Positions 4,884-11,438 of a DNA stretch of 33,432 nucleotides are shown here, piece after piece. Both the position numbers and the translations under genes were made by a program. The stretch's first letter is position 1, and each line of letters begins with the position of its first letter. The notes below the pieces were generated by a model. That model was given only the letters and a program-made list of their open reading frames with translations. It searched no databases and was not told the DNA's origin. Source of the DNA: a virus; the IMG/VR virus record IMGVR_UViG_3300043437_000652, positions 1-33,432 of that record. One strand, written 5' to 3'.

Positions 4884-6176
4884 TTATATGTACTGAATTT
4901 TTCCGTATGGGATTAACTCATAATACATGCGCAGCATAATTGCATCGGCAATGTCTGGACTCATTCCATGCATACGATGCATTTCTTCTTTGGAAATAAC
5001 AGAAAGTTTGTTGTCGCTGTCAATGTTTCTTCTACGTATCATGTCAAGTTCTTTGACAATGTCTTCTTTGTGCTTCGACAAAAAAATAATTTTGTTTTGC
5101 TCAACGAGTTCTGCAAGTTTAAAATAACATTCCGCTTTTAAGTTGACGAAGCGTTCTGGTTTCTTTGCGCGCGAGCCATTCAAGAAACCTTTGCAACGAA
5201 GCGCGTCAACCGCACCACCGCCAACGCCATCTTCGTCACAGATAACATTTTGCAAACGCACATTATTTTTTATTGCAAGCGCACGAATAAAGTCAACCGT
5301 TTCTGTTATGCGCTGTTTCTTCATTACATGCAATTCAAGCAACTGCAAACCGCGCCACAGGCAAACAGTTGTTCGGTCCTTTCCGAGTCGCGCAATGTCA
5401 GCAGAAATAAAAAATTCACCAGTATATGTTTCGTCACGAAAGCAACGAAGTAAGTCATCGTAATTAAAAAGCGCGTCTGCGCTTTCGTCGTACTCCCAAG
5501 AACCAACCAGCAAGCGCAAACGTTCTTGTTCTGGAAGAAGTTCGAGCGTTTCAATGTATGAACTTGGAAGGTATGGATTGTCGTGTGAGGTTGCTGAAAT
5601 AAAAGCGTAGTGCGATGGAAGTTTTTCTTCTTTCCATTTCGAATAAAATTCATTGTACAGCCAACCCTTGCTTGGATTGCATGTCAACAAACCTTTTGGC
5701 GGTATGTTGTAGTGCTTTAATTTAAAACGAACGCGCGAACGCAACACGTCAATTGCACGCTTGCTAACTTGACTGGCTTCGTCAACAAAGAAGTCCGTTA
5801 ATTCATAGCCACCAAGTTGGTCGAACATAACATCGGACGGATACGCGAACAAGTCTTTCAGAATTATTTCACTTCCATTCGAGAAAAAAATAATATTTGA
5901 CTGCGCGTTAAAAATGTAGTCAACGTTTGCACGCAGTCCATATAACGCAGCAACTTCAAAGAATGTACGTAACGTTGTCTTCTTTAACGTATCGAGTTTG
6001 CTGCGCCCAATTAACCCGCGCGTTCCAGCATACTTCAAACGTCTTTCAATTTGCCAAGCGCAACCAGTGAAAGACTTGCTTCCACCAGCTGCGCCACCAA
6101 ACAAAACAACTTTCGCTGGTGCGTCTATTGCAAGCGCACGCAAACATTCAAGTTGCTTTGGTAGAAATTCAACCAT
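4884..6176 (-). CDS. terL: Terminase large subunit
   Basis: The 430-aa ATPase-nuclease that drives DNA into the prohead and cuts the concatemer. The N-terminal ATPase has the Walker A GGAAGGSKS at 27-35 and Walker B with catalytic acid DFFVDEASQ near 128-136. The C-terminal RNase H-like nuclease shows its expected acidic residues in SADIARLGKDRT (about 255-268), VICDEDGVGGGAVDAL (about 310-325) and MSPDIADAIMLRMYY (about 405-420). Length and domain order are normal. What is odd is its place: it is transcribed leftward among early genes, three bases after an SSB-like gene, while the small-terminase-like gene lies 5 kb away on the other strand. It ends at a U-rich tract. Confidence 0.95.
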   Translation of the reverse strand: MVEFLPKQLECLRALAIDAPAKVVLFGGAAGGSKSFTGCAWQIERRLKYAGTRGLIGRSKLDTLKKTTLRTFFEVAALYGLRANVDYIFNAQSNIIFFSNGSEIILKDLFAYPSDVMFDQLGGYELTDFFVDEASQVSKRAIDVLRSRVRFKLKHYNIPPKGLLTCNPSKGWLYNEFYSKWKEEKLPSHYAFISATSHDNPYLPSSYIETLELLPEQERLRLLVGSWEYDESADALFNYDDLLRCFRDETYTGEFFISADIARLGKDRTTVCLWRGLQLLELHVMKKQRITETVDFIRALAIKNNVRLQNVICDEDGVGGGAVDALRCKGFLNGSRAKKPERFVNLKAECYFKLAELVEQNKIIFLSKHKEDIVKELDMIRRRNIDSDNKLSVISKEEMHRMHGMSPDIADAIMLRMYYELIPYGKIQYI

Positions 6177-6411: not shown

Positions 6412-6576
6412 TTATAAAAGGTATTTTTTGTCGCCAGTAAGTTCATACAATTCAGAAAAAATTTGATACATGCGACGACTGTCTTCTACGCTTGGTTTCA
6501 TTAGTCTGCGCGCTGCAAGAAAATTCATTTCTTTTGTTAGTCTTCTGACTTCGGTTTTTATTTCTATTTCCGTCAT
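6412..6576 (-). CDS. Small early protein (54 aa)
   Basis: A short frame of 54 codons starting MTEIEIKTEVRRLTKEMNFL and ending DKKYLL. Its ATG overlaps the stop of the upstream gene (ATGA at 6573-6576) and its stop is two bases before the next start, so the spacing argues for a real gene. The product is basic and helical, possibly a small DNA-binding or adaptor protein; no family recognised. Confidence 0.65.
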   Translation of the reverse strand: MTEIEIKTEVRRLTKEMNFLAARRLMKPSVEDSRRMYQIFSELYELTGDKKYLL

Positions 6577-6794
6577 CGTATTGTATTTGAATTTTCACCC
6601 AACTTGCAAAGCGTCATCATGTATTCTTCGTGGTCTTGGCCTATGACAACGCTTACATGCTTCGCAATATTTTCACCCTTGCGATGACGCTTCACAAGTT
6701 CGTCAATGACTGCTTGCATTGTCTTGAATTTTGTTTTCTTCAAGTAAAGTTGCAAACGTTCGTGGTGGTATTCGTCAATGTTGTTTGACTTCAT
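6573..6794 (-). CDS. Small early protein (73 aa)
   Basis: A 73-residue protein with a basic helical middle (LQLYLKKTKFKTMQAVIDELVKRHRK cut here into two helices) that resembles a short ribbon or helix DNA-binding region in character only. The start lies 20 bases inside the preceding DnaA-like gene, and the stop overlaps the following start. No recognised family. Coupled translation suggests it works with its neighbours in replication or control. Confidence 0.6.
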   Translation of the reverse strand: MKSNNIDEYHHERLQLYLKKTKFKTMQAVIDELVKRHRKGENIAKHVSVVIGQDHEEYMMTLCKLGENSNTIR

Positions 6795-7305
6795 TTGGTG
6801 TGCTTGCTGTTCTTGCTTTCAATGTAACCAGTCTTTGCCAAACGCAACCAAATTGTTTATGAACCAATGCTTCTGCAAAAGGTAAAAGCAAACTAAAAAG
6901 TTTTTCGTTTCCAATTTTATTTTCAATAGCGTGTATCGCATAAAGAATTTGCGAATGCTTCAGCCAAGGCATGTACTGTGTACAGAGTTCTTTCAATGTA
7001 ATTTTTTTCGTTACTACAAACTCATAATACAAAGCATACGAAGCAAGAAATTGTGCAAATGAAACGTCCTTGTTTTTGTTTCTATTCGTACGAATGTCAA
7101 TGCCTGTTTTTTCTTGAACAATGTCGCAAACAGTATTAAAGACTTCTGGTGACAAAGTTCTTCCGCTGTCTTTCCAAACTTCTTTTGCTTGCTTCTTTCC
7201 TTTTAAGTTTAGTAATGGGTACAGCAAGCGCGTTGCTTCTTCTCGGTGGTCTTCATTTACAAACGCACCCAGTACGTCATGCAAATTGTGTTGTGTTTTT
7301 TTCAT
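6775..7305 (-). CDS. DnaA domain-IV-like DNA-binding protein
   Basis: A 176-residue protein, the first gene of the leftward block. Residues about 58-135 follow the layout of the DnaA C-terminal DNA-binding domain: an entry helix with TGID (VCDIVQEKTGID), a basic loop RTNRNKNKD, the helix FAQFLASYALYYEF, then TLKELCTQY and a signature-like segment HSQILYAIHAIENKI (117-131), matching the DnaA HTTVLHA(CR)KI pattern in spacing. No AAA+ ATPase domain is present; the N-terminal 50 residues and the C-terminus are of unknown fold. It could bind a phage origin or the adjacent palindromic promoter. The match is by pattern, without alignment. Standing next to the divergent promoter, it is a good candidate for an early regulator or origin binder. 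Confidence 0.65.
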   Translation of the reverse strand: MKKTQHNLHDVLGAFVNEDHREEATRLLYPLLNLKGKKQAKEVWKDSGRTLSPEVFNTVCDIVQEKTGIDIRTNRNKNKDVSFAQFLASYALYYEFVVTKKITLKELCTQYMPWLKHSQILYAIHAIENKIGNEKLFSLLLPFAEALVHKQFGCVWQRLVTLKARTASTPNEVKQH

Positions 7306-7366
7306 TTGTAAAATAATTTTATTCGATTACATTTGCAAATGTAGTGAAAACAAAAGCCAACACAAG
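7305..7366. promoter_or_regulatory. Divergent promoter pair sharing a 16-bp palindrome
   Basis: TACATTTGCAAATGTA at 7328-7343 is a perfect palindrome. Read either way it begins with TACATTTG, an exact TAnnTTTG -7 box. Rightward, TTTG at 7305-7308 lies exactly 19 bases upstream, giving an ideal TTTG-N19-TACATTTG promoter. Leftward, CTTG (7366-7363) lies 19 bases upstream of the other box. Transcription would start about 25 bases before each first gene. Because the two -7 boxes abut, two polymerases could not open them at once. Confidence 0.75.
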
Positions 7367-7926
7367 TGAAAAATTGTTTGGACATTGAAGTCGAAAAGCA
7401 TTACAAAACTTGGTTGCGTTTTGCACGCGGTCTTGTAAAAAGCAATGTGAATGGACAAGACTTGCTTGGCGAAGTTCTATTAAATGTCATAAGCAAACAG
7501 AAAGCAAAAGCGGAACAACTTGCATGCGAAGAAAAACTTTTTTGGTATGTCAACAAAGCAATTTATTTGACTGCGCGAAATTCAACCAGTCGTTATTCAA
7601 TACAGTACACACGCTATGCAAACAACTGGAATGAAAATTCAAATAAGCACAATGAAGAACGCGAAGAAGTTTGGCTTGGCTCACGACTTGACAACGAATA
7701 CTTGGACGCATACATTTCACTCATGCCACAACTTGACGCAATTGTTTTACGTTTGTATATGCTGGACGACTTCGATTACCAAGACGTAAGCACACAAACT
7801 GGAATACCTATCAAAGACCTTTACAAATTAGTTGAAAACGCAATAAATAAAATACGACGCAATGCAAACGCTTACCGTTCCACTTCAAGTACAACAGACA
7901 CGAATGCAAATTTGCCAGACGTGTAA
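7366..7926 (+). CDS. ECF-like RNA polymerase sigma factor
   Basis: A 186-residue protein that reads as a small sigma-70-family (ECF-type) factor. Residues about 10-80 fit region 2 (HYKTWLRFARGLVKS, then GQDLLGEVLLNVIS and a WYVNKAIYLTARN helix). Residues about 112-165 fit region 4 (LMPQLDAIVLRLYMLDDF, then YQDVSTQTGIPIKDLYKLVENAINKIRR, split here to show the helix-turn-helix). The start is GTG at 7366, about 25 bases after the predicted transcription start. As the first rightward gene it probably reprograms host polymerase to phage late genes, though it could also be a divergent DNA-binding protein. The C-terminal 18 residues are polar, and the gene's end overlaps the next gene. Confidence 0.7.
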   Translation: MKNCLDIEVEKHYKTWLRFARGLVKSNVNGQDLLGEVLLNVISKQKAKAEQLACEEKLFWYVNKAIYLTARNSTSRYSIQYTRYANNWNENSNKHNEEREEVWLGSRLDNEYLDAYISLMPQLDAIVLRLYMLDDFDYQDVSTQTGIPIKDLYKLVENAINKIRRNANAYRSTSSTTDTNANLPDV

Positions 7927-8377
7927 ACATTACAAGAAACATACGCGCAGTTGTGGGACACTTGTCTTTGGTCGCACGCTGAAACCAGAAGAAATTGAAG
8001 AAGCCAAAAAAGAAAACAACATAAAGCATTACAAAAAGAAAGTTCGCTTGTGTGGTTGCTTCTTACCAGCAAAAACATTTGGCATATTTGAAGCCTGTCC
8101 AATTAGTAAATGGGGCGTGCATGCATTAAGCGAAGAAGAACTAAAACAAATTGTTTCTTTCGTTGATACGCTTCCCATAGTTGGAACATACAACGGAGAA
8201 ACAGTAAGGCAGTTGAATGTCTGGTATAAACTATTGACTGGCTCACGCAAAAATATTTCTACTTGTCCAAACTGTGTGCGCGAAACCGTTCGCACCTTTC
8301 GACGTGAAATAAAGAAATACAAACAAGAACTTTTAAACGAAGAAAATAATGCCGATACCAACACCGAAACCGAATGA
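7862..8377 (+). CDS. Cysteine-rich, probably zinc-binding protein
   Basis: A protein of up to 171 residues whose cysteines are paired like zinc ligands: CQTCKHY near 18-21, a CG at 31, CGCF near 64-66, CPIS at 80, and CPNC at 137-140. It may bind one or two zinc ions. The frame overlaps the sigma-like gene by 65 bases; a start at ATG 7901 (MQICQTC) would cut the overlap to 26 bases and is quite possible. The C-terminus is helical and charged. Similar cysteine-patterned proteins occur near terminase genes in Bacteroidetes phages, but I know of no function. Being coupled to the sigma gene, it may help in late control. Confidence 0.65.
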   Translation: MQTLTVPLQVQQTRMQICQTCKHYKKHTRSCGTLVFGRTLKPEEIEEAKKENNIKHYKKKVRLCGCFLPAKTFGIFEACPISKWGVHALSEEELKQIVSFVDTLPIVGTYNGETVRQLNVWYKLLTGSRKNISTCPNCVRETVRTFRREIKKYKQELLNEENNADTNTETE

Positions 8378-8495
8378 AGAAAAGAACGCGTTTATTGCGC
8401 GTTGTATGTCAGATGAAAAAATGTTGCAAGAATTTCCAGAAGCAGCACAACGTCTCGCAGTTTGTCAAACACAATTAAAACAAAATAAAAAATGA
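8349..8495 (+). CDS. Small phage protein (48 aa) with RCM-FP-AVC pattern
   Basis: A 48-codon frame beginning MPIPTPKPNEEKNAFIARC. The spaced pattern P-x-P, then FIARCM, then a lysine/methionine segment, EFPEAAQRLAVC and a short basic tail is one that recurs in Bacteroidetes phage proteins, often as a short gene or fused to a head-maturation protein. Here it stands alone. Its start overlaps the previous gene by 29 bases and its stop overlaps the next start (ATGA), so it is clearly in the operon. Role unknown; it may bind a capsid protein or metal through the two cysteines. Confidence 0.65.
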   Translation: MPIPTPKPNEEKNAFIARCMSDEKMLQEFPEAAQRLAVCQTQLKQNKK

Positions 8496-9049
8496 ATACA
8501 ACAGTAATGAAGTTGAAGGAAATAAAATTAAACCCTTCAAACCCACGCGTCATTAAAGATGAAAAATTTCAGCAACTCGTAAAGTCAATTAAAGACTTTC
8601 CGCAAATGCTTTCTATTCGACCTATTGTAGTCAACGAAGACATGGTTGTTCTTGGTGGCAATATGCGATTACGTGCTTGCCAAGAAGCAAGGTTGAAAGA
8701 AGTTCCAGTCATTATCGCAAACGAACTAACGCCAGAACAACAACGCGAGTTTATCATTAAAGACAATATTGGTTTTGGTCAATGGGATTGGGACATGCTG
8801 GCGAACGAATGGGATGCAACAGAACTTGAAGAATGGGGCTTGGAAACAAATTTTATGAACGAAGACTTGCCGCTTGAAGAAGTGCAAGAAAGTGATACGC
8901 TGGAAGCAGTTGTTGTAATTGGCGTAAACAGCATTCAGGACATTGACAAACTTACTGACTTTTATAGTTTAGAAGAAACCACACTATCAACTGAAATGCG
9001 AAACAAATTAGCAAAACAACGCAAGGTCTATGTCTTCAAACCAGAATAA
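8492..9049 (+). CDS. ParB/Srx-fold (ParB-like nuclease domain) protein
   Basis: A 185-residue protein whose first 115 residues are a ParB-like (sulfiredoxin-fold) domain: KLKEIKLNPSNPR (7-19), RPIVVNEDMVVLGG (43-56), then GGNMRLRACQ (55-64), which stands where ParB proteins have GERRxRA and is the expected nucleotide-binding loop. The chain then runs through VPVIIANELT and a WDWD/WDATELEEWGL region that phage relatives share, often next to DNA modification enzymes. The last 60 residues are unrecognised. Such proteins can bind CTP or ATP, cleave DNA or guide a modification enzyme; which applies is not visible. It overlaps the glycosyltransferase gene by 20 bases. Plausible as the DNA-targeting partner of that enzyme. 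Confidence 0.75.
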   Translation: MNTTVMKLKEIKLNPSNPRVIKDEKFQQLVKSIKDFPQMLSIRPIVVNEDMVVLGGNMRLRACQEARLKEVPVIIANELTPEQQREFIIKDNIGFGQWDWDMLANEWDATELEEWGLETNFMNEDLPLEEVQESDTLEAVVVIGVNSIQDIDKLTDFYSLEETTLSTEMRNKLAKQRKVYVFKPE

Positions 9050-9977
9050 AAAACTCGTCGCAATACTTGGTGGCAGACTATATGAAAACAGTCTAACGCT
9101 TCGTCAATTTTTAATACCGAGCATTCGCAAAAAACTTCAAGAAGAAAATATTGACTTTGTAATTGCAACAAATAATAAGAAGGCGGCAAGTCAATTTAAA
9201 CAATTGAATGAAGTCAAAGTATTGGAATGTTCAGACGAATTTCACCAGTCGTTTATAAATAGACAACGCGAAGAAAAACCAAACTTGGGTGCCGAAACTC
9301 GCGAAATAATTAACCAATATGCCATCGAAAACAATTACGAATATGTGTTGTATTTGGATGACAACATAACAAAACTATTGTATACAAAGAATGGCAAAAG
9401 ACTTCTGTTCAAAAGACATCGGCACTTATCATTTTATCATACAATGATGCTATTGTTTTCGTTAGCTGAAAACACTAACGCTGGTGCAGTCGGTATGGAA
9501 ATGGGTGCGTTCGCTCCAAAAAATGGTGCAACACCAAGGCTGTCAGTTGGTTTTGCATATAGTTTTTTTGTGCAAAAAGTTGATAAGAATTTTGTTTTTG
9601 AAAACGCAACAGAAGAAGACATTTTGATGAACATATACAATGGCAATAACAAGAAACCAAGTTTGTTATTGCGCAACTTGACAACGTATTCGAAGACTGG
9701 TAAAAAAAATGCTGGTGGTGGAAACAGAAAACTATACAACGAGATGCTGAAAGAAAACAAGCGCGGCACTTACATAAACAAAATGTTCCCACACATATAC
9801 ACTATGAAAGTTAGTTACAATGTTATAAGTAGCACAAACCAGAAGACGCCTTTTCTTCAGCACAAACACACGCTAAAAAAACCAAAAGAGTGGGACGGCT
9901 ATGCTCAATATGATAAAGCAAAAGTGTACAACATCATAAGAGAATACCAAAAAACAATTGAAACAAACTTTTTATGA
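9030..9977 (+). CDS. Putative glycosyltransferase, possibly TAGT/GREB1-like
   Basis: A 315-residue protein with a GT-A-like layout: an N-terminal nucleotide-sugar strand (KLVAILGG at 8-15), a conserved GAETREIINQYA helix (87-98), the metal-binding-like YVLYLDDNI (105-113, LDD at 109-111), and an EEDILM acidic motif near 195-200 where GT-A enzymes place the acceptor base. The helix-then-DD arrangement is what I recall of the TET-associated glycosyltransferase (TAGT) family, whose phage members are proposed to glycosylate modified DNA bases. The C-terminal third is basic (KKNAGGGNRK). It overlaps both neighbours, a ParB-like gene and a sugar mutase. No hydroxylase or modified-nucleotide synthase is in the genome, so its acceptor is unknown; protein or glycan decoration remains possible. 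Membership of the glycosyltransferase class is more certain than TAGT. Confidence 0.58.
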   Translation: MSSNQNKKLVAILGGRLYENSLTLRQFLIPSIRKKLQEENIDFVIATNNKKAASQFKQLNEVKVLECSDEFHQSFINRQREEKPNLGAETREIINQYAIENNYEYVLYLDDNITKLLYTKNGKRLLFKRHRHLSFYHTMMLLFSLAENTNAGAVGMEMGAFAPKNGATPRLSVGFAYSFFVQKVDKNFVFENATEEDILMNIYNGNNKKPSLLLRNLTTYSKTGKKNAGGGNRKLYNEMLKENKRGTYINKMFPHIYTMKVSYNVISSTNQKTPFLQHKHTLKKPKEWDGYAQYDKAKVYNIIREYQKTIETNFL

Positions 9978-11077
9978 AAATACTAATTGTTGGCAGCGGT
10001 TTGTCTGGTGCAACTATTGCACGCCTCGCAGCAGAAGACGGACACGAAATTACTGTAATTGATAAACGAGAACATATTGGTGGAAATGTATACGACTACG
10101 TTGACGAAGAAACCAAAATACGAATAAGCAAATATGGCGTTCACATTTTTCATACGTCAAAGGAAAAGGTATGGGAGTTCGTAAACAAATACGAAGAATG
10201 GATTCCATACAAGCACAAAGTTTTGAGTTATGTTTTTGGCCGCTATTTGCAAATACCAGTAAACATTAGTACGCTGAACGAAGTCTACAACAAGGAAATA
10301 AAAACAGAAGCAGATGCAAAAAAATTCTACGACATAATACAGTACAAAGGCGAAATAAAAAATAGCGAGGACGCAGCTAAGGCGAGAGTTGGTTCACACC
10401 TTTATGAATTGCTTTTTAAAAACTACACAATAAAACAATGGGATAAACACCCAAGCCAGTTAGAGGCGTCCGTATTGGAGCGTATACCGTATCGAACAGA
10501 CTTCAATGACAGATACTTCAATGACACATACGAAGGTCTTCCAAAGAACGGTTACACCACATTCGTTACAAATATATTGCAGCATGAAAACATAAATGTA
10601 TTGTTGAATACAGAGTACGTAAGCGAAATGCAAAACGAATACGACGTTGTATTTTTTACTGGAAAAATTGACACGTACTTCAAAGAAAAATTTGGCAAAC
10701 TCGAATACAGGTCTTTGCGTTTTGAGTTTGAGAAACTGGAAATGAAACAATACCAACCATACGCACAAATAAACTATCCAGAGAAAAGACACGAATGGAC
10801 GCGAATAATTGAATACAAACACTTGTACCCTTTTGACAGTAGGCAAACAATAATTGCACGCGAATACAGTACGTCAGAAGGCGAAGAATATTATCCAGTG
10901 CCAACGGCAGAAAATAGAAACACATATTTGCAATACCAAAAGGAAGCAGAAGAAACCGAAAAAAACAATAACGTGTATTTCGTAGGACGACTTGCAAACT
11001 ACAAGTACATGAATATGGACGAAGCAATAGAAAACGCCATGAATGCTTACGATAGGTTCAAAACAAAAATTAATTAA
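9974..11077 (+). CDS. glf: UDP-galactopyranose mutase
   Basis: A 367-residue flavoenzyme that interconverts UDP-galactopyranose and UDP-galactofuranose. Motifs follow the family closely: FAD-binding ILIVGSGLSGATIA (3-16), IDKREHIGGNVYDY (29-42), the active-site KYGVHIFHT (53-61), YTIKQWDKHPSQL (151-163), RIPYRTDFNDRYFNDTYEG (170-188) with the YFND segment, and a C-terminal GRLANYKYMNMDEAIENAM in the substrate-closing region. Length and order are normal and no key motif appears broken. The ATG overlaps the glycosyltransferase stop (ATGA), so the two are made together; the transferase would then use a furanose sugar. UDP-arabinopyranose could be an alternative substrate. The enzyme is rare in phages, which makes the pairing notable. 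Confidence 0.9.
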   Translation: MKILIVGSGLSGATIARLAAEDGHEITVIDKREHIGGNVYDYVDEETKIRISKYGVHIFHTSKEKVWEFVNKYEEWIPYKHKVLSYVFGRYLQIPVNISTLNEVYNKEIKTEADAKKFYDIIQYKGEIKNSEDAAKARVGSHLYELLFKNYTIKQWDKHPSQLEASVLERIPYRTDFNDRYFNDTYEGLPKNGYTTFVTNILQHENINVLLNTEYVSEMQNEYDVVFFTGKIDTYFKEKFGKLEYRSLRFEFEKLEMKQYQPYAQINYPEKRHEWTRIIEYKHLYPFDSRQTIIAREYSTSEGEEYYPVPTAENRNTYLQYQKEAEETEKNNNVYFVGRLANYKYMNMDEAIENAMNAYDRFKTKIN

Positions 11078-11102
11078 CTACAAAATTCAACACAATAAAA
11101 AA

Positions 11103-11438
11103 ATGAGCGCAACAGAAACCAGAAAAAAAGCAATGATACAAGCGTTAGAAAAGTCGCTTGGAGTTGTAACTACTGCCGCACGTCAAGTTGGAATTGAGCG
11201 TACGACTCATTATGTCTGGATGAAAGAAGACGCAGAATACAAAGAAGCAGTGCAAAGTATAGAAGACATTGCGCTTGACTTTGTAGAAACAAAATTGCAT
11301 ACGCTTATTCAAAACGAAGATACTGCCGCAACAATTTTCTACCTAAAAACAAAAGGAAAGAAACGCGGTTACATTGAGCGTCAAGAATTAACTGGAAGCG
11401 AAGGCGCACCAATAATTCATATTGCTGGAAATTTGTAA
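11103..11438 (+). CDS. Terminase small subunit-like HTH protein
   Basis: A 111-residue helix-turn-helix protein of the kind used as small terminase in many phages. The N-terminal part (ETRKKAMIQALEKSLGVV, then TTAARQVGIERTTHYVWMKED) is a clear HTH with a tryptophan in the recognition region, followed by an oligomerisation-like helix (YKEAVQSIEDIALDFVETKL) and NEDTAATIFYLKTKGKKRGY, which is common in phage small terminases. I start at 11103, where the ATG follows a CAATAAAAAA leader; the frame is open farther upstream but that part overlaps the mutase gene. It would mark phage DNA for packaging. The large subunit is on the opposite strand 5 kb away. Confidence 0.72.
   Translation: MSATETRKKAMIQALEKSLGVVTTAARQVGIERTTHYVWMKEDAEYKEAVQSIEDIALDFVETKLHTLIQNEDTAATIFYLKTKGKKRGYIERQELTGSEGAPIIHIAGNL

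Follow-up and report, generated by a model that had tools for sequence, protein, structure and literature searches.

Genes and proteins of the cassette

The window analyzed here is the whole of a 33,432-base IMG/VR record, a siphovirus-like genome in which genes for the tape measure, portal, protease, DnaB helicase, YqaJ exonuclease, and NinG were identified. Three genes on its plus strand overlap one another by 20 and 4 bases, in the arrangement described in an earlier note on this DNA, and encode a ParB-like protein of 185 amino acids (8492..9049), a TAGT-family glycosyltransferase of 315 amino acids (9030..9977), and a UDP-galactopyranose mutase (UGM) of 367 amino acids (9974..11077). The linked block also takes in a fourth gene beyond the three noted earlier, that of the terminase small subunit (TerS; 11103..11438, plus strand), which matches phrog_4102 (1.7e-7) and others and forms the right border of the cassette. 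The TerS reading frame is listed from 11043, and its real start is probably 11103, matching that of a related contig, L002, whose TerS is 93% identical. The large terminase gene (4884-6176, minus strand) lies on the opposite strand, away from the small subunit. Scans of the cassette region for promoters and terminators gave no more signal than expected by chance. Because the record is metagenomic and classed as linear, the possibility that it lacks a gene cannot be fully ruled out. The virus is probably a siphovirus infecting Bacteroidota, a host suggested by the ParB-relative loci in genome bins, which are mostly from Bacteroidota and Chlorobi, and by the window gene at 7366, which has a Bacteroidota-type sigma match.

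The ParB-like protein matches PF02195 above the cut-off (1.2e-8), and its profile also matches the PDB chains 7bnk (ParB family, 9.4e-6) and 4umk. It comprises an N-terminal ParB/Noc-type domain (aa 1-118) and a C-terminal tail (aa ~119-185). The ParB match ends at ~aa 92, and the AlphaFold model is likewise confident only for ~aa 1-92, with linker and tail at low confidence; a central HTH domain was not seen beyond this point, either by the profile or in the low-confidence part of the model.

The second gene exceeds the cut-off of the Pfam TAGT profile PF20691 over residues 89-230 (5.3e-10, 40 bits against a cut-off of 27.5), as do the homologues of its product, and it matches phrog_842, beta-glucosyl-HMC-alpha-glucosyltransferase, at 2.6e-11. 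The PF20691 alignment covers profile positions 65-205 of 205, the N-terminal part aligning poorly by sequence. An LDDN motif spans residues 109-112, with the LDD at 109-111 exactly where it had been placed before, and is accompanied by a conserved D197 and GG region; D110, D111, D197, and G231 are invariant between the window enzyme and six other TAGTs found between ParB and terminase genes. The predicted structure (mean pLDDT 75, pTM 0.81) has the GT-A fold that had been proposed from the layout of the protein, and the viral models closest to it carry the name TAGT (top E 8.8e-16). TAGT membership, offered in the earlier note only as a possibility, is therefore borne out by the profile search recommended there, and the outcome that would have refuted it, a profile match to a glycan or protein glycosyltransferase without any TAGT relation, did not arise. 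The T6 TAGT, which belongs to the same Pfam family, acts on DNA (PMC13216743).

Sequence searches of the PDB with the glycosyltransferase returned nothing, or chance-level matches only. The enzyme was matched neither in a tblastn search of 50,697 phage records nor in a profile search of genome contigs, and these searches leave exactly this TAGT without a named host or cultured phage. The closest solved folds to the model are protein, teichoic-acid, and polysaccharide transferases (collagen galactosyltransferase, TarP, and RmlT), and because these belong to other GT-A families, a DNA substrate is unproven by fold alone. On that evidence, the target of the glycosyltransferase and mutase could instead be a host glycan or a structural protein of the phage, galactofuranose being normally a surface sugar, yet the enzyme matches TAGT and not a glycan family. 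The second gene is best described as a putative DNA galactofuranosyltransferase, for which the TAGT family is identified and the reaction is inferred without biochemical data.

The third gene passes the equivalog cut-off of the UGM model TIGR00031 (4.5e-94, 315.5 bits against 303.75), matches PF03275 (2.4e-69), and aligns along its entire length with the Deinococcus radiodurans UGM 3hdq. Window residues H60, Y151, W156, R170, R277, Y307, R339, and Y345 align with residues of 3hdq that we take to be those of the active site. The equivalog match and the aligned catalytic-region residues confirm the identity first read from motifs, and the gene appears to encode an intact UGM, a function inferred from its family without an assay. 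UDP-galactofuranose made by this enzyme is the presumed donor, and galactofuranose on phage DNA is the likely product, although no biochemical or mass-spectrometric data support the inference. UGMs can also use other UDP-pyranoses, so the attached sugar could differ from galactofuranose. The DNA might carry another sugar if the TAGT used an ordinary host sugar or if the mutase acted on another UDP-sugar, for example by converting UDP-arabinopyranose, which some bacterial UGMs accept, to UDP-arabinofuranose. Such a substitution is favored by the arabinosylated cytosines of phages RB69 and NP (PMC13390438), but it is considered unlikely for a mutase that passes the UGM equivalog cut-off and aligns with a solved UGM in its catalytic region, in a window where arabinose-activation genes were not recognized.

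Recurrence and co-conservation

The order ParB-TAGT-UGM-TerS was found by glycosyltransferase and UGM profile searches in 22 viral contigs including the window, and the same three-gene set, which the earlier note had proposed to look for, is thus present in other phages. All four genes can be seen in 17 of these contigs, counting L094, in which TerS is cut off at the contig end, and L100, in which the glycosyltransferase looks frameshifted and the gene in the TerS position has no match; the remaining five (L101, L142, L145, L147, and L160) are cut by the contig end. As many of the 22 are near-identical samplings, they represent about six lineages, across which TAGT is 53-89% identical to that of the window, with UGM adjacent wherever the neighbor is visible. 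UGM relatives of at least 55% identity all lie within this arrangement, and those read at 48% identity or less lie elsewhere; in no case was this TAGT seen separated from this UGM subfamily. Identity matrices over ten contigs correlate strongly for TAGT and UGM (r=0.93) and less so for TAGT and TerS (0.35), and dN/dS values of 0.07-0.09 for all three genes between the window and L002 indicate purifying selection. The recurrence in 22 contigs and the low dN/dS argue that the arrangement is not due to chance.

The block that the window has in common with L002 extends from 8552 to 11395 on the plus strand at 86% nucleotide identity, with no nucleotide similarity detected by blastn in the flanks. 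Apart from the cassette and TerS, the window and four other cassette contigs have only structural or unknown genes in common.

One TAGT-UGM lineage carries two weak glycosyltransferase matches and a Methyltransf_24 gene upstream of ParB (L093, 2181-4158), and these might extend or methylate the sugar. Two fecal records with UGM (L104 and L106) were set aside because they look like bacterial DNA, and L005 and L006, in which UGM lies beside other glycosyltransferases without TAGT matches, were set aside because they look like glycan clusters.

Occupants of the ParB-terminase slot and the ParB tails

To survey the content of the slot, 78 loci were collected with the ParB protein as the only criterion, and the genes downstream of it were then read. 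ParB is fused to an N6/N4 methylase in 42 loci, every one of which matches PF01555, and is short in the other 36, one of them (L033) cut by the contig end. The readable short-ParB slots hold Mom, ABC-ATPase/GNAT, Tet_JBP sets, deazaguanine genes (QueC, QueD, QueE, and FolE), a C5-cytosine methylase, TAGT alone, or TAGT-UGM, and the partner of Tet_JBP may be TAGT (L052 and L077, as well as the genomic locus L128), an FkbM methyltransferase, a P-loop protein, or TAGT with a sulfotransferase (L061). ParB is a component common to many other modification cassettes, and similar patterns occur in the cultured phages Leptospira LE3 (ParB-GNAT), Bacteroides BS-TP3 (ParB-methyltransferase-TerS-TerL), and Lactobacillus c5 (ParB-TAGT before the terminase). 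No PDB chain was matched by c19, a putative DpdA-like protein.

A fused ABC-ATPase/GNAT protein occupies the slot of L023, L029, L035, L039, L060, L065, L066, and L075. It is counted as a likely modifier, its role being inferred from the slot and from an acyltransferase fold class in common with Mom, and is possibly an unknown base acyltransferase. The ParB slot of L061 (6575-8723) contains, in order, TAGT (6575-7315), Sulfotransfer_2 (7312-7875), and Tet_JBP (7878-8723) genes, and the position of the sulfotransferase between the other two suggests that phage DNA carries a sugar that is sulfated.

Exchange of the slot content is evident in three loci that are ~90% identical on both flanks and hold TAGT-UGM (L002), a ParB-methylase fusion (L040), or an FkbM methyltransferase with TET (L076); their similarity is lost within ParB at ~aa 118, where its domain gives way to the tail, and returns where TerS starts. 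L025, related to the window across the whole genome (terminase large subunit 65%), has Mom in the slot. These patterns bear on decoration of a host glycan or structural protein, which could still be read into the more distant UGMs of viral contigs that lie outside the ParB slot. The close UGM subfamily, however, is confined to a slot that otherwise holds DNA-modification enzymes, and TAGT-UGM is swapped for such enzymes at the same position, which makes a surface or virion target quite improbable. The DNA-decoration module suggested in the earlier note gains support from the TAGT family, the slot context, and this exchange with modification enzymes; the sugar and the site on DNA remain inferences.

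In a comparison of tail classes, the ParB tail of aa ~119-185 was specific to TAGT-UGM cassettes. Across the ParB relatives L008-L087, the tails, that is the residues after ~118, track the class of the downstream enzyme (mean local score 156 within classes vs 28 between; permutation p=0.0002), and identity of the ParB domain hardly depends on that class (0.72 within vs 0.71 between). Leave-one-out assignment of tails to enzyme classes was correct in 36 of 37 cases and failed in one, and the tails of L123 (Mom) and L128 (TET), genomic loci that had been held out, also gave the right class. The TET-class tail is identical in kind regardless of the partner of TET. The ParB tails of the TAGT-only loci L034, L019, and L082 resemble no class, and the C5-methylase locus L015, with a tail nearest the deazaguanine class, is an exception to the rule. 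Because the classes were defined by the downstream enzyme and kinship of the loci was only partly controlled, by excluding pairs above 85% domain identity, this evidence is strong but is not proof. Class-specific tails are a possible general docking rule for modification enzymes, and an adaptor role for ParB may be inferred from the gene arrangement together with the tail specificity.

ParB lies directly upstream of terminase genes in nearly all loci, as would an ordinary packaging or partition protein whose adjoining enzyme genes were unrelated cargo. Very little credence is given to this explanation, given the methylase fused in all 42 long forms, the match of tails to downstream enzyme class, and the many ParB-domain genes that other authors found beside phage base-modification genes, describing their role there in 2025 as unknown (PMC12783734). 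With the tail-class rule, the pairing of ParB domains with phage DNA-modification enzymes gains a specific explanation that can be tested, and reading the genes between this ParB and terminase is a route to new modification enzymes.

Proposed mechanism, acceptor base, and related systems

The three genes are considered probably to form an interchangeable cassette in which UGM makes the donor, the TAGT enzyme puts a furanose on phage DNA, and the ParB tail recruits the enzyme. UGM, judging by its family, would convert host UDP-galactopyranose to UDP-galactofuranose, and the TAGT enzyme would attach this furanose to a base of the phage DNA, a reaction that is itself inferred. The ParB-like protein is presumed to load on DNA via the common ParB domain, and its cassette-specific tail would then dock the matching enzyme on phage DNA before packaging; where ParB is fused to a methylase, its domain would serve the same purpose with the enzyme attached directly. 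Decorated DNA could resist host restriction or other nucleases, as a form of camouflage.

The absence of a recognized hydroxylase or hydroxymethylase, already apparent from the reading frames, was confirmed by profile searches. PF12851 (Tet_JBP) had no match in the window or in the L002, L004, L008, L093, L096, L099, L145, L146, L148, L149, and L151 records, the thymidylate-synthase family (PF00303) had none in the window, the related contigs searched, or Lactobacillus phage c5, and a C5-methylase had none where searched, phage c5 included. To our knowledge, known TAGT-type enzymes act on 5-hydroxymethyl pyrimidines or on sugars already attached to them. It stands against DNA decoration that no enzyme for a 5-hydroxymethyl pyrimidine was found, unlike in known TAGT settings. 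With no TET oxygenase or hydroxymethylase found, the acceptor could be an unmodified base. The complete 31.8-kb genome of phage c5 contains a TAGT (PF20691 4.5e-54) and no TET was found in it, so TET-free TAGTs are not an artifact of broken contigs. Either these enzymes use a standard base or the host supplies the acceptor, and they pose a sharp chemical question as to which acceptor is glycosylated. A bolder proposal, held only tentatively and open to considerable doubt, is that galactofuranose is placed directly on an unmodified base without prior hydroxylation and that ParB is a general plug-in adaptor with an enzyme-selecting tail.

Phage hypermodification by TET/JBP and TAGT employs the same glycosyltransferase family and occupies the same ParB-terminase slot in the TET-TAGT loci named above, whereas the window has no detected TET/JBP and has a furanose-donor mutase in its place. 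The TAGT family is also common to the window and to T-even glucosylation, which involves alpha-GT, beta-GT, and the T6 TAGT that adds a second glucose. T-even phages make 5-hydroxymethyl-dCMP via a thymidylate-synthase-family enzyme and use host UDP-glucose as the sugar donor; in contrast, neither a dCMP hydroxymethylase nor a GT-B glucosyltransferase was found in the window. The ParB-N6/N4 methyltransferase fusions have the same ParB domain at the same site before terminase but carry the enzyme in cis and add a methyl group rather than a sugar. Mosigvirus cytosine arabinosylation, as in RB69 and NP, likewise modifies DNA bases with an unusual sugar from a phage-made donor, and genes for activating the sugar lie close to that of the transferase (PMC13390438). 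It differs in its donor pathway and in its synthesis of a 5-hydroxy-dCMP acceptor, and no UGM has been described there.

No literature linking UGM or galactofuranose to phage DNA was found in searches that left subscription journals mostly uncovered, and novelty is provisional. If true, furanose-hexose DNA would add a new kind to the modified genomes and would put restriction, Cas, and glycosylase-based defenses to a new test.

By analogy, independent support for pairing UGM with DNA glycosylation may come from the cultured L. brevis phage ATCCB (MK504445; L121 4037-7092), in which genes for thymidylate synthase, a T4-type beta-glucosyltransferase (PF09198, 9e-22), and UGM stand in a row. UGM lies directly beside a DNA glycosyltransferase, as in the window, but that enzyme is of the GT-B beta-GT family, the thymidylate-synthase homologue may make the acceptor, and the trio is outside the ParB slot. 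No report on the DNA chemistry of ATCCB was found, and its genome paper mentions no DNA modification.

In Erwinia phage FBB1 (L105 5001-7126) and Aeromonas phage Aes012 (L102 5001-8275), UGM is followed by an unidentified protein of 353-358 amino acids, ~69% identical between the two phages, and motA and topoisomerase genes adjoin. As this protein matches no Pfam family or PDB chain, a third pairing of UGM with DNA is not claimed. Phage c5 has ParB-TAGT followed by terminase (L112 90-1713), and in phage Ld25A (L120 90-515) the start of ParB is joined to the end of TAGT, a junction that looks like a natural deletion.
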